From Pseudomonas cremoris (GTDB lineage: Bacteria; Pseudomonadota; Gammaproteobacteria; Pseudomonadales; Pseudomonadaceae): a DNA stretch of 64,000 nucleotides. A model generated the notes under the pieces. The model did not search any database. It was not told the DNA's origin and saw nothing but the letters and a program-made list of their open reading frames with translations. Where the stretch lies: positions 62,001 to 126,000 of the forward strand of contig NZ_JAAXCY010000016.1 of the NCBI RefSeq assembly GCF_014230465.1, written 5' to 3'. Below, one piece after another: positions 27,351-36,195 of this stretch. The position numbers and the translations under genes are program-made. The first letter of the stretch is position 1, and each line of letters begins with the position of its first letter.

Positions 27351-27389
27351 GTGCGTCATTGTGCGTCACATGAATATCCAGTGCGAAAT
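27351..27389 (+). promoter_or_regulatory. Composite direct-repeat operator upstream of the hisD-like gene
   Basis: GTGCGTCA occurs at 27351 and 27361, followed by GTGCGAAAT at 27381: three TGCG cores at 0, 10 and 30 bases, all on one face of the helix. The same arrangement with identical spacing is found at 29814-29852 before the MFS operon (26 of 39 bases identical). It ends 90 bases before the ATG at 27480. Likely bound by a shared regulator, most simply the XRE protein encoded at 28806. Confidence 0.7.
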
Positions 27390-27479
27390 GGTGGGGTCGG
27401 CGCTCCGTACGGAAAATCGACTGCAGTTGCCAGGGCTTGGAGCCTTGGCCGAAGACGCGTCTTTCAACGGGAGCACACC

Positions 27480-28763
27480 ATGATTCAACACCTCAAGACC
27501 GCAAAGCCAGTGGCTGCGCAGGCTGAAATTGCCAGCCAGGTTCGCGACGTCGTGGCGGACATCATTGCCAACGTCGGTCGCCGCGGTGACGCCGCGGTCC
27601 GCGAGTATTCCAAGCAGTTTGACCAGTGGGACCCCGTCAGCTTTCGTTTGTCGGATGAAGAAATCGCCGCCTGTGTTGCCAGTCTCTCGGAGCAGGAAAT
27701 CGGCGATATCAAGTTCGCCCAAGAGCAGGTGCGCCGTTTTGCCCAGGTGCAAAAAGCCGCGTTGGTGGATGTTGAAGTCGAGACGCTGCCGGGGGTGATC
27801 CTTGGGCACAAGAACATCCCCGTTAACTCAGTGGGCTGCTACATTCCCGGCGGCAAATACCCGTTGCTGGCCTCGGCGCACATGAGCGTGCTCACCGCCA
27901 AGGTGGCTGGCGTAAAACGCGTGGTGGCTGCTGCGCCACCGTTTGATGGCCGACCGCATCCGGCGATCGTCACCGCGATGTACCTGGCGGGGGCCGACGA
28001 AATTTATTGCCTCGGTGGGGTGCAAGCCATCGCTGCGCTTGCGTTGGGCACTGATACCTTTGCGCCGGTGGACATGGTCGTCGGCCCCGGCAACGCCTAT
28101 GTGGCGGAGGCCAAGCGCCAGCTGTACGGCAAGATCGGCATCGACTTGATCGCCGGCCCCACCGAAACGCTGGTGATCGCCGACGAAACCTCCGACGCAG
28201 AAATTGTCGTGGCCGACCTGCTGGGCCAGGCTGAACACGGCGTGAACTCCCCAGCGGTGTTCCTCACTAATTGCGCCGCGCTGGCCGATGCGATTCCTGC
28301 CGAGATCGAGCGCCAACTCGCCGTGCTGCCAACCGCGGCCGTTGCTTCGGTGGCCTGGCGTGACTACGGGGAGATCATCTTGTGCGACACGGTGGAAGAA
28401 CTGGTGCAAGAGGCTGATCGGATCGCCTCCGAGCACGTCCAAGTGATGACCCGCGACCCGCTGTATTTCCTGGAGCACATGACCAACTACGGTGCGCTGT
28501 TCCTGGGTGAGCGCACCAACGTGTCCTATGGCGACAAAGTCATCGGCACCAACCACACCCTGCCGACCACCAAGTCGGCGCGCTACACCGGTGGGCTGTG
28601 GGTCGGCAAGTTCATCAAGACGTGTACCTATCAGCATGTGCTGACGGATGAGGCCTCGGTGCTGGTGGGCGAGTACTGCTCCCGTCTCTGCGGTATGGAA
28701 GGTTTCGCGGGCCACAAGGAGCAGGCTGATATCCGCATCCGGCGTTACAAGAAGACCGCTTGA
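27480..28763 (+). CDS. HisD-family zinc alcohol dehydrogenase (HpsN-like, catabolic)
   Basis: A 427-residue NAD-dependent dehydrogenase of the histidinol dehydrogenase family. It looks like the catabolic branch (for example sulfopropanediol dehydrogenase HpsN) rather than biosynthetic HisD, judging by its context. The zinc and catalytic motifs are all visible: [12 protein letters not shown] (Gln/His), [12 protein letters not shown] (catalytic Glu-His), [13 protein letters not shown] (Asp) and [13 protein letters not shown] (His). GGGAG precedes the ATG at 27480. The gene is convergent with the XRE regulator and shares the composite promoter element of the MFS operon. It probably oxidises an alcohol to an acid in two steps; the substrate is unknown. 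No desulfonation genes were found, so DHPS is only one option. Confidence 0.85.
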
Positions 28764-28805
28764 ACCCAACCCTGCTGCCCGCAATGGGCAGCAGGGGCAG
28801 GACTG

Positions 28806-29672
28806 TCAGTCTTGCCCGCCCCAGACAATCCCCGCATTGTCCCCCGTCATATATTCGCGTACCTCGAACGGCAGCGATGCATCCCCCGGCAGCAGCACCG
28901 TGGCCTCGCGCAGGTGACGCTTGCGGATCAGCCCCTTTTCCACATAACCCAAGGTCAGGCGGGTGGAGAACGGTTGCCGGTAAGACGACGACGCCACCCC
29001 CGTGACCAAACCATGCAGAAAACGAATCGGCCGACGATGCTGCGGGGTCAGGATCGAAAAAGTGATCTCGTTACGTTGCTTGCCTTCGAAGTCCACCATG
29101 AACAAACGGTCGCCGAGCAACAGGCAAAATCCGTGGTAGGTGAATGAATAACCGGTCTTGCCGCTGCCATCCTGCAACGGGAAGCGCTCCACTGTGACGT
29201 ACTGCACCATCGAGTCTGCACGGTACAGGCACGTGACCGAACGCAGGATGCGACCTTTATAGATCGACGAGTTGTGATAGCGGTAATACACGCCCAGGTA
29301 GTCGTCCAACCCTTGCACGGAGGCCTTGGCCAGTGGCAGGAAGTGGTTGAACTGCGCCGATGCCCGCAGGCCGATGGGCAATTCGTTCTCGAAGCCCTCG
29401 TAGAACTTCTTGAAGTCCGCCGGCTCACGAAACAGGTCCTCGGCCTCCATCATGAAATAGCGGGCGATCTTCTGCAGGATCTTCTGCGACGGCACATGCT
29501 GGCCGGCCAGGTACTTGTTGAACTGTTGGCGGTTCACATCGATCTTGCGGCACATGTCAGCGACTGACCGGCACGACTCCACCAGCGTGGCGAGGTTTCT
29601 TTGTACGTTGCCTTGCAGGTCACTGCGCACTTGGTGGCGCTCACCATGGGAGGGGGCGGTTACAGCGGGCAT
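28806..29672 (-). CDS. XRE-type helix-turn-helix regulator of the catabolic island
   Basis: A 288-residue protein with an N-terminal XRE-like helix-turn-helix (VADMCRKIDVNRQQFNKYLAG, residues about 35-60). A roughly 200-residue C-terminal domain follows that I do not recognise; it is rich in beta-type segments and could bind a ligand. GAGGAGA precedes the ATG. It lies between two targets, the hisD-like gene (convergent) and the MFS operon (divergent). It is the only DNA-binding protein inside the island and so the best candidate to bind the repeated composite operator. Confidence 0.82.
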   Translation of the reverse strand: MPAVTAPSHGERHQVRSDLQGNVQRNLATLVESCRSVADMCRKIDVNRQQFNKYLAGQHVPSQKILQKIARYFMMEAEDLFREPADFKKFYEGFENELPIGLRASAQFNHFLPLAKASVQGLDDYLGVYYRYHNSSIYKGRILRSVTCLYRADSMVQYVTVERFPLQDGSGKTGYSFTYHGFCLLLGDRLFMVDFEGKQRNEITFSILTPQHRRPIRFLHGLVTGVASSSYRQPFSTRLTLGYVEKGLIRKRHLREATVLLPGDASLPFEVREYMTGDNAGIVWGGQD

Positions 29673-29762
29673 GGGCGGATGTCTCTCCTCAGGTACGGCG
29701 TTTTATCGTTTTTTTCGTACAGTCAATCAGGCGCGAGCTGCGGTTTGCGCATGCTAGATAGT

Positions 29763-29792
29763 CTGCCTGCGAGCGTCTAGCCTCGCAGGCAG
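29763..29792. repeat. Perfect hairpin in the XRE-MFS divergent region
   Basis: CTGCCTGCGAG (29763-29773) pairs exactly with CTCGCAGGCAG (29782-29792) around an eight-base loop. It sits between the XRE start (29672) and the composite operator (29814). It may separate the two divergent promoters or be a binding site; no T-run follows. Confidence 0.65.
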
Positions 29793-29813
29793 CGCCTGTC
29801 GCATGCAGCACAT

Positions 29814-29852
29814 GTGCGTCGGTTTGCGTCACCCACGAGCCAGGTGCGAAAT
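29814..29852 (+). promoter_or_regulatory. Composite direct-repeat operator upstream of the MFS operon
   Basis: GTGCGTC at 29814, TTGCGTCAC at 29824 and GTGCGAAAT at 29844 repeat the layout and spacing of the element at 27351. The element ends 80 bases before the ATG at 29933, similar to the 90 bases at the hisD-like gene. Two occurrences with matched position support a shared regulon. Confidence 0.7.
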
Positions 29853-29932
29853 TGAGCCCGGTGCGTGATCTCTCGATACTCGAAGCCTGAATTCCAATAA
29901 CGAAGGGGCCATAGCCCCTCGACAGGTGAACC

Positions 29933-31192
29933 ATGCTATCGAGCAAACACGACAACTCCCTCGTTACCCCCAGAATCAAGAAAGCGCGGATGGCCACGTT
30001 CGCCGGTTTCATGATCATGGGCGCGCTGTTCTACACCTGGTCGGTGGGGGTGAGTGCGTTTCGCAACCACCTGGGCATGGAAGGTAGCCTTGGCGACCTT
30101 AACTTCGGCATGGTCGCCCTGGGGATTGCCATTGGCGGCACCATCGGCGCCTTTATCGTCGGGCACTTTGTCGACCGCTTCGGCCCGCGCAGCGTTATCC
30201 GTCTTATCTTGCTGGCCTACCCACTGTCACTGATCGCTTTGGGATACGCCTCCGCGTACACCTTCGCGCTGATGTTCGGCTGCGTGCTGGGGGCGTTGCG
30301 TGGCGCCGTGGACACCGCACTGAATGCCCACGGCGTGCAGGTCGAACGCTTTTACCAGCGCTCGATCATGTCGGCGTTTCATGCGTTCTTTTCGTTGGGC
30401 GGGTTTCTGTTTGGCATCCTGGCCAGTTACCTGGCCGGTTTTTCCACCGAAAGCGCGATGATTCCCTTCACCGTCGCCGGCCTGTCCCTGGCACTGCTCA
30501 GCCTGCTGACCAGCCAGTTCATGCTCAGCAAAGACGAGTTGTTGCCTGTGGCCGCCGAACCGGCCAAGGCCACCGCTGCGCCGTTGTCGCGTAATTGGAA
30601 GATCCTGATGCTGATGATCGCGTTCGGCGCACTGTTGATTGCAGGGATGATCAGCGAAAGCTCGGTCAGTGACTGGGGCCAGGAATTCCTGGTACGCGAG
30701 ACCGGCATGACCATCTCCACCGCTGGCCTGGCCATCAGCTTCTTCACCGGCGCAGGGTTTATCGCACGCATGACCGGCGACTGGCTGGCCACCCGCATCG
30801 GCGCGGCGGCGATGGTGTTCTGCTGCGGCGTGATCTCGATCATCGGCATCTTCCTCTCCACCCTCAGCCACTCACCTGTGCTGGGCATGGCCGGTTTTGC
30901 CTTGCTCGGCCTGGGCCTGGCGTGCATCGCGCCACTGATGCTGTCGGCTGCAGGGCGCAAGGACCCGGCCAACTCGGGCCGCAACGTCGGCATCGTCAAC
31001 GGCATCGGCTTTGGCGGCATGCTCGGGGGCCCGGCGATCTATTCCTACCTGGTGAGCACTTATGGGATTGGCGCGCTGTTCTACATGCCGCTGGTGCTCA
31101 TGAGCCTGATCGCCATCTTCGGCCCACTGCTGATGCGCATAAAACCCGATGCCAAGCCATCCAAGCCGGCGCTGTCGGTCACGGCTGAATAA
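29933..31192 (+). CDS. MFS transporter, first gene of the catabolic operon
   Basis: A 419-residue major facilitator protein with about 12 hydrophobic segments and a polar central loop (residues 195-215). The A-motif GHFVDRFGPRSVIR between helices 2 and 3 is intact. Most likely a proton symporter for the pathway substrate, which is probably a polar polyol or organic acid given the enzymes downstream. It is followed by the GMC gene after 17 bases. The composite operator lies 80 bases upstream. Confidence 0.85.
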   Translation: MLSSKHDNSLVTPRIKKARMATFAGFMIMGALFYTWSVGVSAFRNHLGMEGSLGDLNFGMVALGIAIGGTIGAFIVGHFVDRFGPRSVIRLILLAYPLSLIALGYASAYTFALMFGCVLGALRGAVDTALNAHGVQVERFYQRSIMSAFHAFFSLGGFLFGILASYLAGFSTESAMIPFTVAGLSLALLSLLTSQFMLSKDELLPVAAEPAKATAAPLSRNWKILMLMIAFGALLIAGMISESSVSDWGQEFLVRETGMTISTAGLAISFFTGAGFIARMTGDWLATRIGAAAMVFCCGVISIIGIFLSTLSHSPVLGMAGFALLGLGLACIAPLMLSAAGRKDPANSGRNVGIVNGIGFGGMLGGPAIYSYLVSTYGIGALFYMPLVLMSLIAIFGPLLMRIKPDAKPSKPALSVTAE

Positions 31193-31209
31193 CTGCGAGC
31201 GAGACTGAC

Positions 31210-32793
31210 ATGAAGGTATTTCCTGAGGTCATCGTGATCGGCAGCGGTGTGGGGGGCGCAATGACCGCCCGCCGCCTGGCCGAGAATGGTGTGAATGTAC
31301 TGATGCTTGAGCGCGGCGACTGGGTGCCCAAGGAGCCGGACAACTGGCGCGTGGCCTCGGTGTTTTTCGACAAGAAGTACACCGCACACGACACCTGGCT
31401 GGATGCCCGTGGCGAAGCGTTTCGCCCGAGCATTTACTACAACGTGGGCGGCTGCACCAAGTTCTACGGTGGTTCGATGATCCGCTATCGCGAGCGCGAC
31501 TTTGAAGAACTGGTGCACGAGGAGGGCATCTCACCGGCGTGGCCGGTCAGCTACGCCGAATTCGAGCCGTATTACACCCAGGCCGAGCAAATCTTCAAAG
31601 TGCACGGCGACGACAAGGACGACCCGTCAGCACCGTGGCGCAGTGCACCGTATCCGTTTCCCGCCGTGGCCTCGGCGCCTATCGTCGAGGCCATGTGCAA
31701 GGGGATGCGGGCCGCTGGCGCGCGCACCTCGGCCATGCCGCTGGCGGTGAATTATTCGAGCGAAGGCAATTGCACGCTGTGCAAAACCTGCGACGGTTTC
31801 CCGTGCAAGATCTCGGCAAAAATGGAAGCGGAAACTGCGCTGGTGCGCCCGGCCCTGGCCACGGGCAACGTCACGTTGCGTACCAACACCCTGGTCAAGC
31901 GCCTGTTGTTGAGCCAGGACGGCAAGAAGGTCACCGGTGTGGTGGTTGAAACCGACGGCAAGAGCGAAGTGCTCACGGCCAGGCTCATTGTGGTGGCCTG
32001 TGGAGCGGTCAACAGCGCGGCGTTGCTGCTGCGTTCGGCCTGCGACGCCGCGCCCAACGGTGTGGCCAACAGCTCCGACGTGGTGGGTCGCCATTACATG
32101 GCGCATAACCAGACTGCGCTGATGGGGCTGTCGATGCGCCCCAACGACACGGTGTTCCAGAAAACCGTGTCAATGAACGAGTTCTACTTCGGCGCCCCGG
32201 ATTACCCGTATCCGCTGGGGCATGCGCAGATGCTCGGCAAGCTGCAGGGCGGCATGCTGTCGGCCAATGTGCCGTTCATGCCCAAGGCGGTGGGTTCGAC
32301 CATGGCCCGCCACAGCATGGACTGGATCGCCTTCTCCGAAGACCTGCCCGACCCCGAGAGCCGCATTGTGCTCAAGGACGGCCAGATCCAGATGGCGATC
32401 CGGCGCAACAACCTCGGGCCCCATCGGCGCTTCATCAAGAAGCTGGTGAAGCTGCTGCGGGCCAGCGGCTACCCGATCGTGCTGACCAAGCCACTGCTCA
32501 AGCACTCCACGTCCCATCAGTGCGGCACGGTGCGGTTCGGCACCGACCCCAAAACCTCCGCGCTGGACATCTATTGCCGCAGTCACGACCACGCCAACCT
32601 GTTCGTGATCGATGCGTCGTTCATGCCCTCGTCGGCGGCGGTCAACCCGGCGCTGACCATCGCCGCTCAGGCGTTGCGCGCGGCCGAACACATCCTCCAC
32701 ACAGAATTTGGCATCACTCACATCAAGAGGCCTGACGACGTGCAGGCCCAACCCGTATTCATCTACGAAACAGCAGGAGCGCAGCATGACTGA
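31210..32793 (+). CDS. GMC-family FAD oxidoreductase
   Basis: A 527-residue flavoprotein of the glucose-methanol-choline oxidoreductase family. The FAD-binding fingerprint VIVIGSGVGGAMTARRLAE is at residues 7-25. The C-terminal block HQCGTVRFGTDP and the segment SSAAVNPALTIAAQALRAAEHI are typical of the family. A Cys-rich patch (NCTLCKTCDGFPCK, residues about 187-200) recalls sugar/alcohol dehydrogenases of the gluconate-2-dehydrogenase and fructose dehydrogenase type; no cytochrome subunit is present here. It should oxidise a hydroxyl of the substrate. It overlaps the next gene by eight bases. Confidence 0.87.
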   Translation: MKVFPEVIVIGSGVGGAMTARRLAENGVNVLMLERGDWVPKEPDNWRVASVFFDKKYTAHDTWLDARGEAFRPSIYYNVGGCTKFYGGSMIRYRERDFEELVHEEGISPAWPVSYAEFEPYYTQAEQIFKVHGDDKDDPSAPWRSAPYPFPAVASAPIVEAMCKGMRAAGARTSAMPLAVNYSSEGNCTLCKTCDGFPCKISAKMEAETALVRPALATGNVTLRTNTLVKRLLLSQDGKKVTGVVVETDGKSEVLTARLIVVACGAVNSAALLLRSACDAAPNGVANSSDVVGRHYMAHNQTALMGLSMRPNDTVFQKTVSMNEFYFGAPDYPYPLGHAQMLGKLQGGMLSANVPFMPKAVGSTMARHSMDWIAFSEDLPDPESRIVLKDGQIQMAIRRNNLGPHRRFIKKLVKLLRASGYPIVLTKPLLKHSTSHQCGTVRFGTDPKTSALDIYCRSHDHANLFVIDASFMPSSAAVNPALTIAAQALRAAEHILHTEFGITHIKRPDDVQAQPVFIYETAGAQHD

Positions 32794-34600
32794 TACAAAA
32801 AAAACAAAAATGACCGGCGGGCAGATCGTGGTCGAGTACCTCATCCGCGAAAAAGTGCCGTACGTGTTTGGCATTCCCGGGCACGGCAACACCGCGCTGC
32901 TGGACGCCTTTGTCGACCGCAAGTCGGAGATCACCCTGGTGCCAGCGATGCATGAGCAAGGCGCCTCGCACATGGCCGACGGTTTCTACCGCGCCAGCGG
33001 GCAGATCGCGGCGGTGTGTGCGTCCATCGGCCCGGGTGCCACCAACACCTTGACCGGGATCGCGACCGCGTTCGCCGACTCGTTGCCGCAACTGGTGATC
33101 AGCGGCGGCGTGCACACCTACATGCTCGGCAAAGGCGTGTTGCAGGAACTGGATCGCCCCCACGGCGACAACTTCCCGCGCATGGCCGAACCGGTGGTCA
33201 AGCGCTGGTGGCAGCCGGGCACCGTGGCCCAATTGCCGGGCGTGATGACCCAGGCGTTCAACGTGATGCTTGAGGGCCGTCGCGGCCCAACGCTGATCAA
33301 CCTGCCGCAAGATCTGCAAGCCGAATGCGCCGAGATCGAGCTGCCTTCGCCGCAAACCCATCGCGGCCACGGCAGACTGCATGGCGACCCAGCGGACATT
33401 GCCCGTGCCGTGCAGTTGCTATTGTCGGCGGAACGCCCGGTGATCATGGCCGGTGGCGGGGTGATCGCGGCCAACGCCAGCGACGACCTGGTGACCATCG
33501 CCGAGCATGTGGGCGCAGCCGTAACCACCTCGTTCATGGGCAAGGGCTCGATCCCCGAAGATCATCCGCTGTACGCCTGGCCGTGCGGTGACCTGGGCTC
33601 GATTCCGGGCAACGCGATGACCCGCGAAGCTGACGTGATCCTGGCCATCGGTTGCCGTTTCAGCGACCGCATCACGTCTTCGTATCGTCCTGGCGTGACC
33701 TTCGACATTCCGAACAAGACCAAGCTGATCCAGATCGATATTGATGGCTTCGAACTGGGCAAGAACTACCCGGTGGAAGTGGGTATCGTCGGCGATGCCG
33801 GGCCGATCCTGCAGGACCTGCTGGCGGCATTGCGCAACAGTTGCCCCGCGCGGGACTACAGCACCTCGCCGATGTTCCAGCGCTTGCAGCACCTCAAGGC
33901 CAAGTGGGAAGAGCACCTGGCGCCGCTGCGCACCTGCAACCAGTCGCCGATGACCGTGTCCCAGGTGTTGTTCGAAGCCCGCAAGATCCTGCCGCGCAAC
34001 ACCATTGTGGTCACCGACTCCAGCAACCCGCAAAACCAGGTGTTCAACGAGTTTCCGGTGTACGGGCCTAAACAGCACATCACTCCGGGTGGTTTTTCCG
34101 GCATCGGCTTCGCACTGCCGGCCGCCATTGGCGCCAAGATGGGCGCGCCAAACCAGCCGGTGGTTGCCATTTGCGGTGACGGTGCGTTCCTGCAAACCGG
34201 CCAGGAACTGGCGACAGCGGTGATGATGGGCGTTCCGGCGATTTTCCTGATCATCAACAACGGCGGCTGGGGCGCGATCCGCAACCTGCAACTGAACATG
34301 TTTGGTGAAGACCGCGAAATCATCACCGACTTCCGCACCCCGGATGGCGCGTCGTGGGAGGCCAATATCGCCGACTTCGCCAAGTCGCTGGGGGCTGCTG
34401 CCGAGCGTGTGACCGACCCGCTGCAGATCGGCGCCGCCGTGGACCGGGCACTGGCGTCCAACCGTCCGTACGTGATCGAGGCGATGTGCTCCATTGAGCG
34501 GCCGTGGAGCAACATGCACCCGACCGGCTGGTGGGACATCACCGTGCCGGACTACCTCGGCGAGTACCGCGATGAGTACGTGAAGAACCGCGGCTTCTGA
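32786..34600 (+). CDS. Thiamine-diphosphate enzyme of the acetolactate synthase/IolD superfamily
   Basis: A 604-residue ThDP enzyme with the three-domain layout of acetohydroxyacid synthases and of the inositol-ring hydrolase IolD. The catalytic Glu is at about residue 57 in AMHEQGASHMADGFYRASG. The ThDP/Mg motif is CGDGAFLQTGQELAT followed by NNGGWGAIRN. The start at 32786 has CAGGAG nearby and overlaps the GMC stop. Plausible reactions are carbon-carbon bond cleavage of a 1,2-dicarbonyl intermediate or a carboligation. Genes of branched-chain amino acid synthesis are absent nearby, so a catabolic role is more likely. Confidence 0.85.
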   Translation: MTDTKKTKMTGGQIVVEYLIREKVPYVFGIPGHGNTALLDAFVDRKSEITLVPAMHEQGASHMADGFYRASGQIAAVCASIGPGATNTLTGIATAFADSLPQLVISGGVHTYMLGKGVLQELDRPHGDNFPRMAEPVVKRWWQPGTVAQLPGVMTQAFNVMLEGRRGPTLINLPQDLQAECAEIELPSPQTHRGHGRLHGDPADIARAVQLLLSAERPVIMAGGGVIAANASDDLVTIAEHVGAAVTTSFMGKGSIPEDHPLYAWPCGDLGSIPGNAMTREADVILAIGCRFSDRITSSYRPGVTFDIPNKTKLIQIDIDGFELGKNYPVEVGIVGDAGPILQDLLAALRNSCPARDYSTSPMFQRLQHLKAKWEEHLAPLRTCNQSPMTVSQVLFEARKILPRNTIVVTDSSNPQNQVFNEFPVYGPKQHITPGGFSGIGFALPAAIGAKMGAPNQPVVAICGDGAFLQTGQELATAVMMGVPAIFLIINNGGWGAIRNLQLNMFGEDREIITDFRTPDGASWEANIADFAKSLGAAAERVTDPLQIGAAVDRALASNRPYVIEAMCSIERPWSNMHPTGWWDITVPDYLGEYRDEYVKNRGF

Positions 34601-34668
34601 CCCCGCCATCGATTCGCCTGTGTTCAGGGACGAACGCAGGCCTTCATGCACCGCCATAGGCCTGACAA

Positions 34669-35370
34669 ATGACAAGAACCAATCAACAGCGCGAGCTGCA
34701 ATTCAGCGACCAGTTTGTAGCGTGTTACCTGGTCGAAAACGTTAAAGATTTCAAGGTGGAGGGGGGCGTAGCAGTCAACCTCGACCATGCCCCGATGCAC
34801 ATCGGCGGCCCTGTGCCCACTGTGGTGCCTGGCTGGAAATCCACCGTATTGTTCAATGCCGTGATTGCCAGTGCCAACCGTGTTGCGGTGTTTCGCGTGC
34901 GCAGCGAAGTTGACCTGGGCGGCATCGTGCTCGGTGAGTGGGACTGGTTCGGCAACCGCTTCGCCAAGTTCCCGCGCACCACGCCGCTGTACATCTCGCG
35001 CTACGACGAGATTGGCGCTGTGCACCTGGACCCGTATGCATTCGCCAACCAGCGGGCAGAGGCCGTCGACCTGCGCGAATACGGCATCCGCCTGAACCTG
35101 TGGTGGGCGCCGACCAACACCGATTGCTTCCTGCACAACGAGCATCCCTTCCTGGAAATCCACACCCAGATCCACGGTTCGGGGCGTATCCAGAAATTTC
35201 TGGAGCGCGATGAAAACACCCTTTACAAGCAGATCAGCATGGCGCCGGGTTATACCCATGACCCCTTTGTGCATGTCGATAATGCGGGCAACCCGACGTA
35301 CCCCTGGCACCGCTATTGGTCCGATTCGGACGCGATCTGGCTGGCCATCGAATTTCATCCCAAGGCCTGA
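34669..35370 (+). CDS. Uncharacterised cupin-like protein in the catabolic operon
   Basis: A 233-residue soluble protein I do not recognise. No signal peptide is present. Its sequence is rich in Trp, His and Asp. It contains several possible metal-ligand clusters: LDHAPMHIGG near residue 40, CFLHNEHPFLEIHTQIHGSG near residue 155, and GYTHDPFVHVDN. The HxxxxxExH arrangement within NEHPFLEIHTQIHG is reminiscent of a cupin metal site. It lies between the ThDP enzyme and the TIM-barrel isomerase in the same operon (68 and 9 bases apart). By analogy to IolB, a cupin isomerase, it may isomerise a pathway intermediate. This is inference. Confidence 0.7.
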   Translation: MTRTNQQRELQFSDQFVACYLVENVKDFKVEGGVAVNLDHAPMHIGGPVPTVVPGWKSTVLFNAVIASANRVAVFRVRSEVDLGGIVLGEWDWFGNRFAKFPRTTPLYISRYDEIGAVHLDPYAFANQRAEAVDLREYGIRLNLWWAPTNTDCFLHNEHPFLEIHTQIHGSGRIQKFLERDENTLYKQISMAPGYTHDPFVHVDNAGNPTYPWHRYWSDSDAIWLAIEFHPKA

Positions 35371-35379
35371 GGGCGCGCC

Positions 35380-36195
35380 ATGAAGATAGCTGTTGTCACC
35401 TGGACCCTCGGCATCACTGCACCGGAGCAGGTGCTGGCCAAAGCGGTGGCGTTGGGGCTGGACGCGATCCAGTATTCCGGCGACCACCGCGACGCCTGCC
35501 CGGTGAACCTGCGCGAACAGGCACGGCAGGCAGGCATCGCTATCCTGGCGGTCGACCCGATCAACGGTGGGCCGCGGGACCCCGCCCAGGCCACGCCTGA
35601 AGACGCCCTGGCGTACTACCGCAAGGTGGTGGATTTTGCCGCTGCGCTGGGCAATGTCCCGGTCACGCTGCAAGGCCTGTCACTGTGGACGCGCAATTGC
35701 CCCGACGCAGCCTCGGCGCGTGCGCGGTTGCTGGCGTGCTGCAAGACGATTGACGCCTATGCACAAGCACGCGGCGTGCCGACACTGTACGAACCCTGCA
35801 ACCACTTCGAACTGCCGCTGATCAACACGGCGGCCCAATGCCGGGCGCTGATCCGTGAGGTGGGCGGCGACAACCTGCGCATGGTGCTGGACAGCTTCCA
35901 CATGAACATCAATGAACCCGACCCGCTGCAAACCTTGCGCGACCACGCAGGGTTGACGGCGATCTACCACATCTCGGATTCGGGACGCGGGGGTATAGGC
36001 AGCGGCCATATCGATTTCCAGGCGCAGCACCAGGCGTTGATGGCCAACGGGTTTACAGGTGATGTGTCTATCGAGTTGGTGTTGCCCCAATTGTTGCCGG
36101 GGCAATCTCCCGTCAGTGAAGCGGATATGTTGGCGTTGGACACCCAGGTACGCGACAGCGCCAGAAGCTGGCGTGAATACACCTGTAATGCCTGA
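35380..36195 (+). CDS. Sugar-phosphate isomerase/epimerase-like TIM barrel (AP-endonuclease 2 family)
   Basis: A 271-residue protein of the xylose isomerase-like TIM-barrel family. Metal-binding residues are likely the Glu in PTLYEPCNHFELP, the Asp and His in LRMVLDSFHMNINEPDP, the His in IYHISDSGRGGIGSGHIDF, and the Glu in GDVSIELVLP. This family includes IolE inosose dehydratase, hydroxypyruvate isomerase and tagatose epimerases. It ends the island operon, nine bases after the cupin-like gene, and is followed by a REP element. The substrate is unassigned. Confidence 0.82.
   Translation: MKIAVVTWTLGITAPEQVLAKAVALGLDAIQYSGDHRDACPVNLREQARQAGIAILAVDPINGGPRDPAQATPEDALAYYRKVVDFAAALGNVPVTLQGLSLWTRNCPDAASARARLLACCKTIDAYAQARGVPTLYEPCNHFELPLINTAAQCRALIREVGGDNLRMVLDSFHMNINEPDPLQTLRDHAGLTAIYHISDSGRGGIGSGHIDFQAQHQALMANGFTGDVSIELVLPQLLPGQSPVSEADMLALDTQVRDSARSWREYTCNA

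Follow-up and report, generated by a model that had tools for sequence, protein, structure and literature searches.

A cluster of apparently catabolic genes in Pseudomonas cremoris raises two questions, namely whether its two transcripts answer to a single regulator and which compound its enzymes degrade. The cluster occupies positions 27,351 to 36,195 of a 64,000-nucleotide stretch of contig NZ_JAAXCY010000016.1 (assembly GCF_014230465.1; positions 62,001 to 126,000 of the forward strand), referred to here as the window, in whose numbering coordinates are given unless they carry a locus name. As stated in the original prediction, which was made from the sequence alone, a HisD-like gene is followed by an XRE-type regulator gene on the opposite strand and then by an operon (29933-36195) encoding an MFS transporter, a GMC flavin oxidoreductase, a thiamine diphosphate (ThDP)-dependent enzyme, a cupin protein that we call P6 and a TIM-barrel protein. 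Judged from sequence comparisons, the two transcripts very probably form one regulon under the XRE protein. Tentatively, and a little short of even confidence, we read the cluster as an XRE-controlled oxidative catabolism of a 1,5-anhydrohexose-type sugar following an inositol-like logic, the substrate being one that we infer.

The two upstream regions share, as had been predicted, a three-part composite element with TGCG cores at offsets 1, 11 and 31 in each copy. The first copy precedes the HisD-like gene (27352..27391, plus strand; TGCGTCA, TGCGTCA and TGCGAAATGG) and the second precedes the MFS operon (29815..29854, plus strand); both sites are also present in genome G001, according to a whole-genome pattern scan. 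The identity of 26/39 claimed for the pair holds for the best pair of 39-mers between the 200-base upstream regions, for which 300 dinucleotide-shuffled pairs gave a mean of 20.9 and a maximum of 24 identities; counted from the first TGCG the identity is 25/39, and over forty bases 26/40. The distance to the start codon is nearly equal, as claimed, with 88 bases between the end of the element and ATG 27480 and 78 bases to the MFS ATG at 29933. The former ATG, with GGGAG just upstream, is the likely start of the HisD-like gene, instead of the GTG at 27351 from which the open reading frame had been read, which overlaps the first base of the element and is an unlikely start. Predicted promoters are located on the plus strand at 27389..27417 for the HisD-like gene (-35 TGGTGG, 17-base spacer, -10 GAAAAT), with transcription expected from the spacing to start at about 27424, and at 29852..29880 for the MFS operon (-35 TTGAGC, 17-base spacer, -10 GATACT), with a probable start at about 29887.

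Conservation in orthologous loci had been set beforehand as the test on which the proposal of a common regulon could fail, and the element was found to be conserved there. An earlier, stricter DNA pattern gave 0 sites; in its place, sites were scored by their matches to the 26 bases common to both window copies, with a threshold of at least 20/26. A search with the P6 family yielded 84 loci, 80 of which were kept. Sites reaching the threshold occur in 38 of the 48 P6 loci with an XRE relative (1/144 in shuffles of the same loci) and in all 17 Pseudomonas XRE loci (0/51 in shuffles). Two counts fit the link less well: the best site scores just 18-19/26 in 10 of the 48 loci with an XRE relative, and 5 of the 32 P6 loci with no XRE gene in range nevertheless have a site (0/96 in shuffles). 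These five exceptions (L042, L044, L045, L049 and L081) are proteobacterial, and the cluster may extend past the fetched stretch.

Whole genomes were scanned for TGCGTC-N4-TGCGTC-N14-TGCGAAAT with one mismatch allowed. The pattern is present in 19 of 298 Pseudomonas genomes, which are exactly the 19 that encode a strong XRE relative (identity 43-100%, E no higher than 3.5e-70; the best match outside this group has E 1.2e-34 and 33%), and in none of the other 279, in agreement with the claim of one regulon. Weaker matches only (E 1.2e-34 or worse) and no element were found in 128 of the 147 genomes with XRE matches, and the reversed pattern, used as a control, gave 0 in every genome row of the scan. 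Under independence, the overlap between the two sets of 19 genomes would have a chance probability of 2e-30; genomes are not independent, and we therefore read the overlap as very strong, not as 2e-30. In G244, the element precedes the HisD-like gene even though approximately 217 kb separate this gene from the XRE gene, which argues for regulation in trans. The pairing of element and XRE gene recurs in Paraburkholderia and in alphaproteobacteria, and in 26 selected loci elements precede hisD, MFS, ThDP, P6, second TIM-barrel, second GMC, GFO and transporter genes.

The general form of the element is TGCGTCA-N3-TGCGTCA-N13-TGCGAAATTG, with the -10 box 17 bases past the -35 hexamer in most non-redundant sites. 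Redundancy was removed by dropping sites at least 75% identical to another, which reduced 121 sites to 38 at 20/26, 98 to 27 at 21/26 and 71 to 16 at 22/26. The A and T of the -10 hexamer are found at spacer 17 in 23/38 non-redundant sites, against a mean of 1.4 and a maximum of 6 at other offsets. By this pattern, the element is a predicted promoter in which two TGCGTCA sites lie upstream and a third site reaches the -35 hexamer. The XRE regulator itself (28806..29672, minus strand) has an N-terminal helix-turn-helix that qualifies as Cro/C1-type, while its C-terminal domain, which has no Pfam match, is modelled as an avidin- or calycin-like eight-stranded barrel; a Foldseek search with the regulator's model returned nothing at E up to 0.001. 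Given its co-occurrence with the element, the XRE protein would bind the TGCGTCA repeats; with a third site at the -35 hexamer, it would most likely act as an activator responding to the substrate via the C-terminal β-barrel.

As to the substrate, P6 (34669..35370, plus strand), originally described as cupin-like, is indeed a double cupin in its predicted model. It has no Pfam (E up to 0.001) or NCBIfam match, and its family comprises 549 relatives at E up to 1e-3. The model shares its fold with the double-cupin part of the fungal aldos-2-ulose dehydratase/isomerase (AUDH; PDB 4A7K/4A7Y/4A7Z), an enzyme acting on anhydro-sugars, passes as an AUDH-type double cupin, and has AUDH standing out among its Foldseek matches by TM-score and coverage; P6 differs from the fungal enzyme in sitting in an apparent catabolic operon. 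Each of the metal-like residues (H156, H159, E163, H165, T166, Q167, H214 and E228) is conserved, with at most one exception, across 56-57 cluster P6 proteins, and is present in 23/23 distant ones; the H/E set among them may or may not correspond to the zinc ligands of AUDH. An AUDH propeller is encoded at most 3 kb from the distant P6 genes in 11/23 loci and adjacent to them in 9, and the one propeller neighbour tested matches the PDB AUDH with E 2.5e-71.

The surroundings of some P6 homologues deserve separate mention. In Xenorhabdus (L083:8792-12020), a gene for a WecB-like UDP-GlcNAc 2-epimerase (351 bits) directly precedes the P6 homologue and the AUDH propeller, and the proteins adjoining P6 in L074 and L076 have, as read from their sequences without a model scan, N-termini similar to that of this protein; it is a speculation that such an epimerase might eliminate a UDP-sugar to an anhydro-ketose. 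In the cyanobacterium Oscillatoria princeps (L061:8414-14023), a GH31 protein comes after the propeller and P6, and its length of 1029 aa is roughly that of an alpha-1,4-glucan lyase. The label of glucan lyase is unproven for this protein, because alpha-1,4-glucan lyase is its second PDB match, after maltase-glucoamylase.

The HisD-like protein (27480..28763, plus strand) is a Zn/NAD alcohol dehydrogenase, its cofactors assigned by homology, with HpsN, the sulfopropanediol 3-dehydrogenase, as its best PDB match (E 6e-117). Against TIGR00069, the model of biosynthetic HisD, it scores 444.2 bits, above the cut-off of 243.8. A motif given in PMC11382572 reads G-R-Y-A/S-H in HpsN and G-S-A-P-L in HisD. 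The window protein has G-K-Y-P-L and so carries neither; the motif is G-[KQR]-[YF]-P-[LM] in 62/62 fetched loci covering it (rows are counted as loci, some of which overlap within one genome), and the sulfonate-binding histidine of HpsN (His126) is absent from all 62. By this motif, the HisD-like proteins studied here form a putative third HisD-like class. The GMC flavin oxidoreductase (31210..32793, plus strand) has the large subunit of fructose dehydrogenase as its closest solved relative, and the MFS transporter (29933..31192, plus strand), a presumed importer, and the TIM-barrel protein of the isomerase/epimerase family AP_endonuc_2 (35380..36195, plus strand) are assigned by family match. 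The ThDP-dependent enzyme (32786..34600, plus strand) belongs to the acetolactate synthase/IolD superfamily and keeps the cofactor-activating glutamate, as do 69/69 ThDP alignments covering the position (92 in all). It scores 293.5 bits against the IolD equivalog TIGR04377, below the cut-off of 715, which bears out the earlier view of an inositol-like enzyme set whose members are not the iol enzymes. In a P6-free Pseudomonas version of the locus (L116:9967-11058), we observed a short ThDP protein (363 aa) that has a ThDP domain at either end, no central-domain match and the element upstream. The query for the HisD-like protein began one residue after its initial Met, and that for the window's ThDP enzyme one residue ahead of ATG 32786, differences that should not matter to the outcome.

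Inositol (iol) catabolism proceeds through oxidoreductase, TIM-barrel, cupin-fold and ThDP steps, and the cluster resembles it in uniting one set of these four kinds of enzyme, while adding the HisD-like and GMC enzymes. No inositol dehydrogenase (IolG, a GFO protein) was found among the nine window proteins scanned, the search being confined to these and not extended to the rest of the genome. For a 1,5-anhydrohexose-type sugar, the MFS transporter would import the pyranose (1,5-anhydroglucitol, 1,5-anhydrofructose or a close analogue) and the GMC enzyme would turn one of the ring hydroxyls into a ketone. P6 and the TIM-barrel protein would then, by epimerisation, elimination and tautomerisation, give an ascopyrone-like enolone, equivalent to a masked cyclic 1,2-dione. 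The ThDP enzyme might cut the C-C bond joining the two carbonyls, in the way that IolD cuts a cyclic dione of its own, and the HisD-like enzyme might convert a terminal CH2OH or aldehyde group into an acid entering central metabolism; the scheme fixes no order for the last three steps. A new polyol, cyclitol or sugar-acid route had been thought possible at the outset; the evidence leans to an anhydrohexose or a 2-keto-sugar over a cyclitol or a sugar acid.

Comparison with relatives adds to the anhydrohexose proposal a reductase family. HisD-like, XRE, GMC, ThDP and P6 genes are all present in 36/80 loci, Pseudomonas aylmerensis among them, and most of these loci we take to belong to Rhizobiales and Rhodobacterales. 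The genes accompanying them vary, and include a sugar-type ABC transporter, a GFO of the 1,5-anhydro-D-fructose reductase (AFR) family or another GFO, a second TIM barrel and a choline-dehydrogenase-like GMC. The GFO of the alphaproteobacterial representative L033 has AFR as its closest solved structure (E 1e-25), and AFR-family GFO proteins, aligned over at least 250 columns, occur in 33/57 proteobacterial loci, 8 of them at 40% or more. AFR orthologues (69-86% to 2glx) were found in 3/10 genomes searched; their three operons contain solute-binding protein and ABC genes of the cluster's families, and two of them a GMC gene. All three orthologues (L160, L161 and L162) have sugar ABC genes beside them. 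In L160, Pfam also identifies a CoA-transferase, an enoyl-CoA hydratase and a DUF993 protein nearby, and L161 and L162 look similar by eye.

Several observations weigh against this interpretation. No AFR relative was found in the window, and the authentic AFR operons are separate loci without the element. Fructose and glucose dehydrogenases are nearer relatives of the GMC enzyme than pyranose oxidases are. By Foldseek E-value, AUDH (2e-7) is barely ahead of other cupins as a match of P6, and the seven-bladed AUDH propeller (PF22301) has no match in the window. P6 matches no PDB sequence at E up to 1 and its family profile none at E up to 10, and because of this the AUDH link is one of fold and of the neighbourhood of distant homologues. 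GH3, an aspartase-like enzyme or ABC transporters labelled spermidine-like, present in some relatives, fall outside the simple scheme. Finally, most regulator-bearing Pseudomonas genomes lack P6: 16 further genomes encode an XRE relative of 85-87% identity without it, and for 11 of these the fetched stretches show a HisD-like gene of 87-91% with a different set of enzymes around it.

The nearest rival, which we consider unlikely, is the degradation of ordinary glycosides or levoglucosan-type sugars by 3-keto chemistry. Here the GMC enzyme or a GFO would oxidise C3, the TIM-barrel protein would eliminate the aglycon to give 2-hydroxy-3-keto-glucal, and P6, the ThDP enzyme and the HisD-like enzyme would process the enolone. 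GH3 genes and a levoglucosan-dehydrogenase-like GFO (293 bits, cut-off 650, in one representative) are indeed found in some relatives, but neither GH3 nor GFO is among the nine window proteins scanned. The levoglucosan pathway LgdA-B1-B2-C, as described in PMC7676230, has isomerase/epimerase and GFO families that occur in relatives of the cluster, LgdB1 and LgdB2 being annotated as sugar phosphate isomerase/epimerase, and a similar enolone intermediate, 1,5-anhydro-D-erythro-hex-1-en-3-ulose, which by our comparison is the 4-hydroxy analogue of ascopyrone M. However, the route described there has four enzymes, reducing 3-keto-glucose to glucose, and no ThDP step, so that the ThDP and HisD-like steps of the cluster are extra to it. 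Both the anhydrohexose proposal and 3-keto chemistry would have P6 act on an enolone.

A cyclitol route, in which a deoxy-, O-methyl- or amino-inositol would be oxidised, dehydrated and cleaved by the ThDP enzyme, is improbable. The iol-like succession of oxidation, TIM barrel, cupin and ThDP enzyme speaks for it, as does the match of the ThDP enzyme to the IolD model (293.5 bits), but none of the nine proteins scanned reaches any iol equivalog cut-off, P6 has the fold of the AUDH cupins, AUDH being an enzyme of pyranoses, and the HisD-like step hints at a CH2OH group, absent from plain inositols. We regard as quite improbable a glucosone (aldos-2-ulose) route, with the GMC enzyme as a pyranose 2-dehydrogenase and P6 acting on the dehydrated osone as in cortalcerone formation. 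AUDH is named for its aldos-2-ulose substrate and the GMC enzyme does match the pyranose oxidase model, but with 60.5 bits against a cut-off of 544.9; moreover, cytosolic C2 oxidation of glucose would compete with ordinary glucose use, and the AFR-family reductases of relatives point to anhydro forms. Catabolism of the sulfonate 2,3-dihydroxypropane-1-sulfonate (DHPS), suggested by the match of the HisD-like protein to HpsN, is most improbable and was rejected because the HpsN motif, with its sulfonate-binding histidine, is replaced in all 62 loci. C-glycoside deglycosidase gene sets consist of GMC, TIM-barrel and DUF6379 members; this candidate was set aside, P6 having no match to DUF6379 (the beta subunit) or to any other Pfam family at E up to 0.001.

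A more specific form of the anhydrohexose proposal is an aerobic oxidative route for 1,5-anhydroglucitol or 1,5-anhydrofructose that joins a stand-alone AUDH-type cupin, ThDP cleavage and an XRE regulator with an avidin-like sensor barrel; it would be an oxygen-ring analogue of inositol catabolism, with the ThDP enzyme splitting an ascopyrone-like dione. As a joint claim this is possible but somewhat unlikely. According to passages of a 2025 review (PMC12441222), no oxidative counterpart for 1,5-anhydroglucitol has been described. The same passages report, for Rhizobiaceae, a 1,5-anhydrofructose route of reduction followed by an unidentified P450-like enzyme and, for gut bacteria, anaerobic 1,5-anhydroglucitol routes (glycyl-radical YbiW/PflD) comprising phosphorylation and an oxygen-sensitive radical enzyme. 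The AFR route of Sinorhizobium morelense resembles the cluster through the AFR-family GFO of many cluster relatives, but the authentic AFR belongs to another operon; the neighbourhood of the L160 type, for its part, does not look like the published succession of reductase and P450. The YbiW/PflD routes share the proposed substrate class and differ in their chemistry, no glycyl-radical family being represented among the nine window proteins scanned. Among the matches listed, which cover open-licence PMC papers, we found no literature on this cluster; within the literature covered, the combination of known enzyme families and the role of the cupin were not found reported. If the anhydrosugar proposal is true, the cluster supplies candidate enzymes for such a pathway and, whatever the substrate, it provides a function lead for the unannotated P6 family. 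The regulator-promoter pair occurs in gamma-, beta- and alphaproteobacteria and offers a means of locating additional members of the pathway.

The cluster had also been called an island. Its sporadic distribution is in line with this term, P6 being rare in Pseudomonas (2/298 genomes), but its composition is not (GC 0.615, against 0.598 for the window). Downstream of the operon, the segment 36236-42709 contains an RpiR regulator, a C45 acyltransferase-like protein and ABC and solute-binding genes; blastn gave no match to it at the corresponding site in either of two relatives, of which one has a direct join (L084) and the other about 1.5 kb of other DNA (L004, P. aylmerensis). L084 belongs to G001, the nearest genome compared, where near-identical sequence contains the hisD, XRE, GMC, P6 and RND genes in pieces. 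We do not read these split genes as gene loss, since the adjacent RND gene is fragmented as well, its pieces being mostly 97-100% identical; an assembly with indel errors is the likely cause.

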